Assembly (NCBI GenBank): GCA_903916565.1
Contig: CAIWXH010000648.1
Coordinates: 1 to 35,102, forward strand
DNA: 35,102 nt
From: an uncultured Oscillochloris sp.
GTDB taxonomy: Bacteria > Chloroflexota > Chloroflexia > Chloroflexales > Chloroflexaceae
Direction: 5' to 3'
The notes beneath the pieces were generated by a model. The model was not told the origin of the DNA, did not search any database, and worked only from the letters and a program-made list of their open reading frames with translations. Position 1 is the stretch's first letter. Each line of letters begins with the position of its first letter. Shown here in pieces: positions 18,328 through 22,078 of the stretch. A program made the position numbers and the translations under genes.

Positions 18328-19560
18328 ATGTCCAATTCAAGTTCGTACAGCTGGTTACCGAACTGGCTGCTCAAGTTCCTGAACCTTGATGACGAGCTAC
18401 CCAACTACGGCCCTAGCAGTAGTTACAGTAAAGCGTCGCCCGCGCCGCCGTCGTTGAGCTTCGCCGCATCGGTGCGCCCGGCGTCAACCTACACGCCCTC
18501 CGCGCAGTCGCCCTCTGCCTACGCTCAGGCCACCCCGTCTGAAGGGGGCGGTAGCTCACGCTTCGCCAGTTACCTCGGCACGCCGACCCCCGAGGAGGCG
18601 GTCAAGCGCTTCAGTTCGTTTCCGAGCGCCCCCCCCTCGGTGGCCTCGCCGCCGCATGAGAGCGGGCAGCGTCCCGCAGGGCCGCCCCCGCTTGCGCCTC
18701 GCCCGGTCACCTCGAATGGCGACATGTCCCTCCCCGGCGCGATTAGCGAGACGGTCGCGAATGGCTTTGTGCAGCCGATTGGTTTTGCGGTGCGCTCATT
18801 CGCCCGTGGTGCCTTGCCCCCGCAGGGTCTTGATCAGTTCAACCGTGAACTGGGCGCGACGATGACCGATGTCTGGAACTTTTACACCTACTGGATCCGC
18901 TTCGAGACTGATGACCTGTTCCAGATTGGTCGCGAGGCGTTTGACGCCGTGACCGGCCTGTTGCCATCGTTTGGCGAGAGTGTGGCTATCACGCAGCCGC
19001 GACGGATTAAGGTGACCCAGGCTGGCGATGCCGAGGCTGGGGTAAAGCGAACGACCCCGACTCCGCCGCCTACTCCGACAGCGGTCTTTAGTCGCACCGT
19101 GGCGGCTGATGCGGCGGTGGTGCCGCCTGCGAAGGATATTTCGGCTGAACGCACGGCGCGTGTGGCGAAAGAGACTGCGCCGATTGTTACGGATGTCGCC
19201 GAGACGACAACCAAGGTGACGGAAAGTGTGAAAGCGGAGATTGCCGCAAGTGCGCCGACGATCACGCCTGCGGCCGCAGCTTCGCCCGTAGCCCCGACGG
19301 TCACGCCTGCTGCTTCAGCTTCGCCCGTGGCCCCGACGGTCACGCCTGCTTCGCCCGTGGCCCCGCCGAAAGCGCCAATCCCCCCCCCGGCGGCGGCTCC
19401 AACCAGTGCCCCAAGCGCCTCGGCAGCAACCCCGCCCGCGACGCCTAGCAGTGGCGCGCGTCCTACGACACCTGGCAGCGGCTCGCGTCCTACGACACCC
19501 GGCAGCGGCTCGCGCCCCGGTGAGCAGTCGAAGGATCGGCGGGACAAAGGCCGGAAATAG
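18328..19560 (+). CDS. Pro/Ala-rich low-complexity protein of the chlorosome locus; candidate chlorosome-associated protein
   Basis: 410 aa; ordered core GAISETVANGFVQPIGFAVRSFARGALPPQGLDQFNRELGATMTDVWNFYTYWIRFETDDLF flanked by disordered segments and a repetitive basic C-terminus. Confidence 0.7.
   Translation: MSNSSSYSWLPNWLLKFLNLDDELPNYGPSSSYSKASPAPPSLSFAASVRPASTYTPSAQSPSAYAQATPSEGGGSSRFASYLGTPTPEEAVKRFSSFPSAPPSVASPPHESGQRPAGPPPLAPRPVTSNGDMSLPGAISETVANGFVQPIGFAVRSFARGALPPQGLDQFNRELGATMTDVWNFYTYWIRFETDDLFQIGREAFDAVTGLLPSFGESVAITQPRRIKVTQAGDAEAGVKRTTPTPPPTPTAVFSRTVAADAAVVPPAKDISAERTARVAKETAPIVTDVAETTTKVTESVKAEIAASAPTITPAAAASPVAPTVTPAASASPVAPTVTPASPVAPPKAPIPPPAAAPTSAPSASAATPPATPSSGARPTTPGSGSRPTTPGSGSRPGEQSKDRRDKGRK
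19258..19515 (+). repeat. In-frame degenerate tandem repeats in the C-terminal coding region
   Basis: Repeats of GCTTCGCCCGT[A/G]GCCCCGACGGTCACGCCTGC (SPVAPTVTPA) and CGTCCTACGACACC[T/C]GGCAGCGGCTCG (RPTTPGSGS); 9-nt C run at 19380-19388. Confidence 0.75.
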
Positions 19561-20437: not shown

Positions 20438-20465
20438 TTGAGCGAACAAGTTTTTGTACTATAAT
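20438..20465 (+). promoter_or_regulatory. Sigma70-like promoter immediately upstream of the structured RNA region
   Basis: TTGAGC (20438-20443) - 16 nt - TATAAT (20460-20465). Confidence 0.6.
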
Positions 20466-20474
20466 ACAAGCATA

Positions 20475-20900
20475 AAGTATCCGACCGGGTCAGTAACCCA
20501 CGGCGAACGCTCGTGGGCTTGAATTTCGGTTCAAGCTGGTGCTGACCAGTCTCAGCCACCAATCTTCGGGTTGACGGGGCTACGCGAGCGGCAAGCGTTC
20601 ACGACCTACCGGCGGGTGCGTTGCCAGCCTGCCGCGCTAGAACCTGGGCATCAACCAACGGTGGGGTACGCCGTGCATGTACTCTTGGGATAGTACCGAC
20701 CGCTCGCTTTAACGAGGCGAACGTACCCCGCAAGGGGAGTCCTTACGGGCAAACAGGTCTGACGGTCTTCCTGGGCTTTGCGGTCAAAAAGACCGTCACC
20801 AATCCGCCAAGCCCGTGTCACTAGGCGTTGAAGCGGGCTGAGGCTTGGCGGTTCTCCCAGTGCTGAAGCGGCTGGGTTTCCGCGCCTAAAGGCAAGCATT
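20475..20900 (+). ncRNA. Large structured RNA candidate; HEARO/OMEGA (IscB omega-RNA)-like hypothesis
   Basis: No convincing ORF; dense pairing: CCCACG/CGTGGG (20497/20512), CTTGAA-tttcgg-TTCAAG (20518-20535), GGTGCTGA/TCAGCcACC (20538-20560), CAATC-UUCG-GGTTG (20560-20573), GGGGTACG/CGTACCCC (20663/20722), GACGGTCTT/AAGACCGTC (20761/20789), CCGCCAAGCC/GGCTTGGCGG (20804/20842), CCCAG/CTGGG (20856/20872). Confidence 0.55.
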
Positions 20901-20902
20901 CT

Positions 20903-21184
20903 ATGCATATCAGCGATCCGAACAAGCCCAACTACGACTACCTGACTCGCTACGTGTGCGGGATCGAGCTTGATTTCGGTGTGCTGGAGTTCAAGGATCA
21001 CGGGATCTACCCGGATGTGCTTCGCGAGATCGGCTTCACCGATGTGGCGTTCGCCGAGCAGTACGACCACGTACTCTACCACAGGCGGTTAAGGTCTAGC
21101 GGCGGACGAGGCGGCAGGTACGAGTGGTTCGTGGCCGTGAACCTTACGTGCCGTGTTAGCATGGTCGGTGGCTATTTTGGGTAA
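20903..21184 (+). pseudogene. Truncated fragment resembling the C-terminus of a SAM-dependent methyltransferase
   Basis: HISDPNKPNYDYLTRYVCGIELDFGVLEFKDHGIYPDVLREIGFTDVAFAEQYDHVLYHRRLR resembles a methyltransferase C-terminal half; no SAM-binding N-terminus upstream, only the non-coding region. Confidence 0.4.
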
Positions 21185-21264: not shown

Positions 21265-21576
21265 ATGTCGGAAACCACAGGTGAGGTGCGGGTGCGTAAC
21301 GTTCGCACGAAACGCAGTGAGAACTTGGTGGAGTCCGCGCTGGAATTCGGCGGTGGTGCGCTGCGGATGGGCTTTTCGGTTCTAACCCTCCCCCTGTCGC
21401 TGCTGCCCCCGATCAGCCGCCAGCACATCCAGAATGCGACGAAGGAGTTCGCCTACGCTTTCGCGGGTCTGCCGGGCGAGCTTGTTGGGGTGGCGAGCAA
21501 GATTGTTGATGACTGGGCCGCCGATAGCGCAGCGGCCGATAAGAAGGCCCCGAAGGACGAACTGACTGCTGGCTAG
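21265..21576 (+). CDS. CsmM-like small chlorosome envelope protein candidate
   Basis: 103 aa (about 11 kDa): SENLVESALEFGGGALRMGFSVLTLPLSLLPPISRQHIQNATKEFAYAFAGLPGELVGVASKIVDDW; paralogous to the next ORF; SD AAGGAGG; position consistent with csmM-csmN. Confidence 0.65.
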   Translation: MSETTGEVRVRNVRTKRSENLVESALEFGGGALRMGFSVLTLPLSLLPPISRQHIQNATKEFAYAFAGLPGELVGVASKIVDDWAADSAAADKKAPKDELTAG

Positions 21577-21637
21577 GTGCGCTGCGCTGTCGCTGGTAGC
21601 CCTGTAGGGGCACGGACAGGGACGCCCCCAATGAGGA

Positions 21638-22078
21638 GTGTATTGTATGAGCGAGAATGCGAACACCACCCGCGCCGATGACGATGGCCTGTTCGAGATG
21701 GGCGTCAGGCTCGTGACCAGGGTGGTCCACACGGGCCTGAACGTCGTCTCATCTCCGCTGAGCATTTTGCCCCCCAATACGCGGGTGCGCGTGCGCCGTG
21801 GTATCGCTGAGTTGGCCCGTGGGGTCATTGCCCTGCCCAAGGAGTTGGCCGATATCTCTGAGCGTGTCGTTGATGACATCTTCAGCGGCACCCCCCCGAC
21901 CCTGCCCAGCACCGAGACGATCAGTAACCGCGCCCGCGCTTTCACTGAGCGGTTAGCTCGCGCCGCTAATGAGTTGGGCACTAGTGTCGGTCAGGTCGCT
22001 GGGCGTGCGGTCGATGGGGGCGAGCGCAGCGCCGCTAAGGTAGACGAGTGGGTCGAGAAGGCGCCTAAAACCCCCTAA
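21638..22078 (+). CDS. CsmN-like small chlorosome envelope protein candidate
   Basis: 146 aa: DDGLFEMGVRLVTRVVHTGLNVVSSPLSILPPNTRVRVRRGIAELARGVIALPKELADISERVVDDIFSG; shares the amphipathic core with 21265-21576 (P-LS-LPP, LP-EL, VDD). Confidence 0.65.
   Translation: MYCMSENANTTRADDDGLFEMGVRLVTRVVHTGLNVVSSPLSILPPNTRVRVRRGIAELARGVIALPKELADISERVVDDIFSGTPPTLPSTETISNRARAFTERLARAANELGTSVGQVAGRAVDGGERSAAKVDEWVEKAPKTP

Follow-up and report, generated by a model that had tools for sequence, protein, structure and literature searches.

A HEARO-type RNA behind a bchU promoter in an uncultured Oscillochloris: probable fusion of a nuclease-less mobile element to a decayed host operon

The HEARO RNA described here lies in a contig of an uncultured Oscillochloris sp. 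(35,102 nucleotides, hereafter called the window). It is, with high probability, the passenger leader RNA of a decayed pigment operon, assembled from three components: the promoter of the bacteriochlorophyllide methyltransferase gene bchU, an inserted mobile element that lacks a nuclease gene, and a deletion of about 0.9 kb that brought the two together. The evidence supports reading the junction of promoter and RNA as an accidental fusion, not as domestication. The features concerned are the following.

20438–20465, + strand: sigma-70-type promoter TTGAGC-N16-TATAAT, lying outside the element and interpreted as the promoter of the host's former bchU operon
20454–20469, no strand assigned: palindrome TTGTACTATAATACAA, likely an operator, overlapping the -10 box and identical in nine genomes
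20472–20488, + strand: predicted 5' segment of the RNA in the guide position (17 nt), former bchU leader DNA, from the predicted start to the element end
20489–20726, + strand: HEARO RNA (omegaRNA scaffold), Rfam RF02033, full model 1–211, 87.9 bits (cut-off 83)
20489–20902, + strand: nuclease-less IscB/HEARO-type mobile element, 414 bp, delimited by copies with the same ends and by a filled/empty pair at pnp
20834–20902, + strand: right end of the element, kept in copies and in IscB-bearing elements
20856–20876, + strand: hairpin in the right end
20888–20892, + strand: AAAGG, likely ribosome-binding site, 10 nt upstream of the host ATG
20903–21082, + strand: bchU remnant (residues 292–351), frameshifted near its end; the host target motif is the ATG at its start, which reads ATGA in G002
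21161–21184, + strand: what is left of the following pigment gene, of chlorophyll synthase type; by comparison with G001 and G002, its start codon is joined to its last codons (MVGGYFG)

The complete match to RF02033 supports the suggestion, made in a preliminary description of this DNA, that the RNA is of the omega-RNA type. That description had placed the first helix at 20497, behind a leader of about 25 nt. In the Rfam model, the outermost helix (GUCA...UGAC) begins at 20489, at the end of the element, which leaves a leader of 17 nt; the 27-nt string listed earlier corresponds to 20470–20496 and takes in 8 nt of scaffold. Across ten nuclease-less copies, 10 pairs have changed on both sides (3.4 after shuffling; 0–5 in slid controls). 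As these compensatory changes affect both sides of pairs, the RNA structure appears to have been maintained among these copies, which are related to one another, and the same changes point to use in trans, at least formerly. The copy in the window has one private pair-breaking change only, and its scaffold seems not to have visibly decayed. Thermodynamic folding of 20472–20726 gave z = -1.1, with the leader partly paired.

The limits of the element are set by its copies. The same genome holds three further full-length matches to 20489–20905 (78–85% identity) and four additional matches to the right end only. Full copies start with GTCAG, end with CATTCT or CACTCT and are followed by ATG; the further copies have the same ends and unrelated left flanks. 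At pnp, one copy is located exactly between the leader and the ATGA start codon, and the corresponding site is empty in G002 (...GGACACACGGAGGAATGTAGAGAGCT followed uninterrupted by ATGACAGAACG) and likewise in G001. This pair documents that the element inserted cleanly ahead of the target motif, with no duplication; hence, the element comprises the 414 bp from 20489 to 20902, and the ATG is host DNA. For the copy in the window, the right side alone is clean. An IscB element of G027 shares both the left end (88% of 33 nt) and the right end (87.5% of 80 nt), and the right end is also common to an IscB-bearing element of G005, so the element in the window derives from IscB-type elements but lacks the nuclease. 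No ORF of its own was found within it, and no matching element ends were found near the Y1 transposase loci of the genome. The right-end-only matches (L061, L062, L063 and L064) lie directly before start codons (e.g. that of transketolase); they are relics or the right ends of other elements, possibly retained as translation leaders.

Start codons are a recurrent neighbour of these elements. At 25 other right ends (including the four right-end-only matches), an ORF is read from the ATG or GTG of the junction, and 13 of these ORFs encode proteins whose Pfam domain is complete at the N terminus. These 13 include pnp, hemE, pufL, two ABC ATPases and the genes for a bifunctional nuclease and transketolase; five further junction ORFs are long and look like plausible gene starts, and another copy is found 14 nt ahead of the start of a gene identified as htpG by eye, from its sequence. 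In the window, 466 sites read [A/G]TGA, 217 of them ATGA, and eight of the 466 coincide with gene starts. On the assumption that all 28 genes of the window begin with ATGA, finding 13 of 25 right ends at gene starts still has p = 3e-6, a value to be read with the relatedness of these right ends in mind, which were found by end similarity and are not fully independent. The HEARO/IscB-type elements placed exactly at host start codons include those at L001, L002, L013, L024, L028, L087 and other loci, and they carry a likely ribosome-binding site in their right end. Insertion before ATGA or GTGA was reportedly noted already in the first description of HEARO by Weinberg in 2009.

Because the guides of IscB come from DNA outside the element, guide transcription depends on the insertion site. 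The pattern suggests that many copies may sit inside host transcripts and have their guides made by host promoters; the start-codon junctions and the exact pnp pair suggest guide transcription from the host promoter, with the likely ribosome-binding site of the element (AAAGG, about 10 nt upstream of the ATG in the conserved right end) sparing the gene. A wider proposal would be that, in Chloroflexales, the target motif of IscB-type elements is the start codon of a host gene (ATGA), so that they land between promoter and start codon, that the host promoter makes a guide-bearing omegaRNA while the right-end ribosome-binding site keeps the gene translated, and that even nuclease-less copies, including that in the window, provide expressed guides to a trans-acting IscB. 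We regard this proposal as tentative and rather doubtful. The copy in the window is itself an exception to the start-codon pattern, combining an internal target in bchU with a deletion.

The right junction of that copy falls at Met292 of the methyltransferase, where G002 has ATGA. The best structural relative of this methyltransferase, far ahead of the rest, is 1x19 (E 4.7e-100), which we take to be BchU, and on these comparisons the gene is bchU, encoding bacteriochlorophyllide methyltransferase. Of bchU, the genome retains residues 291–351 only (about 60 codons), and a search of the genome found no other bchU. The distance from the palindrome to ATGA is 925 bp in G002, compared with 19 bp from the palindrome to the element in the window, so bchU and its leader have lost approximately 906 bp on the left. 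The gene has been lost from G001 too. A change of antenna pigment would be expected to accompany the loss of bchU.

We propose that the 414-bp element would first have entered bchU just before the ATG(A) at codon 292, and that a later left-side deletion of about 0.9 kb would have removed the rest of the gene, bringing the omegaRNA to a position 24 bp behind the bchU promoter. We infer this order from the relatives; the deletion might have proceeded through the short repeat GTCA, common to the leader and the left end of the element (the leader of G001 has GGTCA, which could have paired with GTCAG of the element). Recombination between two copies of the element was also considered as the cause of the deletion and is disfavoured, given that the lost left site is without ATGA in G001 and G002.

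The promoter has a separate and older history. Its hexamers (TTGAGC, 20438–20443; TATAAT, 20460–20465) and their 16-nt spacer are exactly as first described. A scan of 2.3 kb for the consensus motif gave one site against a shuffle mean of 0.6, which is not significant alone, and the promoter is taken as real because of its conservation across relatives, not because of the bare motif count. Within the order Chloroflexales, the 16-mer TTGTACTATAATACAA with the -10 box is identical at the orthologous site in nine genomes (G000, G001, G002, G005, G013, G020, G024, G030 and G033). It occurs exactly once per genome in seven of the eight whole genomes scanned (reversed control, zero). In most carriers, a hexamer resembling the -35 box (TTGAGC, TTGAAC, TTGAAA or TTTACA) lies at the same spacing of 16 nt; G005 and G020 have the palindrome without it. 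This conservation rules out a chance promoter despite the non-significant motif count. In several genera, TTGTACTATAATACAA (20454–20469 in the window; L077–L083) is present a single time in each genome, ahead of the bchU operon.

In G002, G013 and G024, the methyltransferase gene follows directly; in G005, G030 and G033, a gene for a small membrane protein lies between; and in G001, the promoter is followed by a truncated start of bchU. The promoter was not found at the other copies of the element, the left flanks of which have nothing in common, and a promoter belonging to the element is thereby ruled out. Judged from these comparisons, it is the older host promoter of the bchU operon and not, as had been supposed, the RNA's own. 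The palindrome over the -10 box is likely the binding site of a pigment-gene regulator, and the promoter may have been kept for the genes at 21265–22078, the first of which is also found downstream in G001. Elsewhere in the window, tandem repeats of 39 and 27 bp (19255–19514) form a low-complexity tail of the ORF at 18328–19560, for which there was no Pfam match.

Transcription is expected to start near 20472, and with the element beginning at 20489 the predicted leader is therefore 17 nt long. The preliminary description was thus correct that the promoter is placed to give the RNA a 5' segment of guide length. In the solved structure of IsrB, the scaffold has a 20-nt guide on its 5' side (PMC9581776), and 24 nt is the guide length preferred by one HEARO nuclease (PMC9755519); thus, the leader is near a plausible guide length. 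The transcript would begin with 17 nt of former bchU leader, followed by the scaffold, the remainder of the element and what is left of the operon. Its layout would be that of an omegaRNA, with no evident guide target and no IscB at hand.

The suggested search for targets was carried out with the last 16 nt before the scaffold (20473–20488), and the genome held no other match with up to two mismatches. The best site with three mismatches (on C768) is followed by AGCG, which is no TAM. Among viral sequences, the segment had seven exact matches, none of them followed by NTGA, compared with eight for the reversed control, and on these two grounds the viral matches are due to chance. A functional OMEGA guide is recognized by a match to a target beside a TAM, and the genomic and viral searches yielded none. 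No IscB-family protein (RRXRR, PF14239) was found beside the RNA, as the preliminary description had it, or anywhere in the assembly; at 850 contigs and 97% completeness, the assembly may have missed an IscB element. The relatives served as positive control, and the same search found four IscB in the congener G001. Matches to the IscB model NF040563 in the genome covered the HNH part only, scored under the cut-off and were rejected.

Since its guide segment lacks an evident target and no IscB is available to it, the RNA most likely guides nothing and would be transcribed as the leader of the decayed operon. The alternative that it is a working trans-acting guide RNA (driven by the bchU promoter, loading into an IscB that is encoded elsewhere, unassembled or acquired from relatives, and directing it to a target outside the searched collections) appears unlikely. 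A leader of suitable length, the RNA structure maintained in nuclease-less copies and the presence of IscB and similar elements in the congener speak for it. Against it stand the missing IscB in a nearly complete assembly, the absence of further genomic matches at up to two mismatches, viral matches at control level without NTGA, and the origin of the guide segment, which is residual bchU leader and not the flank of a clean insertion.

Still less probable is an assembly artefact in which the promoter side was wrongly joined to the element side. The assembly is fragmented, and the break falls where a repeated element ends; however, the copies differ by at least 15%, which makes cross-assembly unlikely, no second bchU turned up, and the frameshift in the bchU remnant and the internal deletion in the next pigment gene are expected of real decay. 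There is only a very slight chance that the RNA was domesticated as a regulatory RNA under the regulator of the pigment operon, as the preliminary description had considered: the operator-like palindrome conserved over the -10 box and the scaffold without visible decay would fit, but the same RNA recurs in other nuclease-less mobile copies, its proximity to the promoter results from the loss of about 906 bp and not from visible selection, the arrangement occurs in this genome alone (behind this promoter, eight relatives have host genes and no HEARO), the adjoining pigment genes are decaying, and no guide target was found.

The copy in the window thus illustrates how a deletion can fuse an element to an unrelated promoter and create a guide-like RNA without a target, and it cautions against naming lone omegaRNAs domesticated. 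Compared with the HEARO/omegaRNA of IscB elements (RF02033; PMC9755519, PMC9581776), the locus agrees in the full model match and in a guide position 5' of the scaffold. The ATG after the element is likewise what the NTGA-type target motifs of IsrB/IscB would predict. It differs in that the element is without an IscB or IsrB gene, none having been found in the genome, and in a left flank that does not derive from a clean insertion. In IscB-bearing genomes such as that of Ktedonobacter, lone omegaRNA loci have no neighbouring nuclease gene. The omegaRNA in the window likewise has no adjoining nuclease gene; unlike those loci, it belongs to a genome in which no nuclease was found, and its promoter can be traced to a host operon. 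Finally, the element resembles nuclease-less (MITE-like) derivatives of IS200/IS605-type elements in being short, in having no ORF of its own, in its several copies and in ends common to IscB-bearing elements of relatives (G027 and G005), and is set apart from them by its possession of a whole guide-RNA scaffold.
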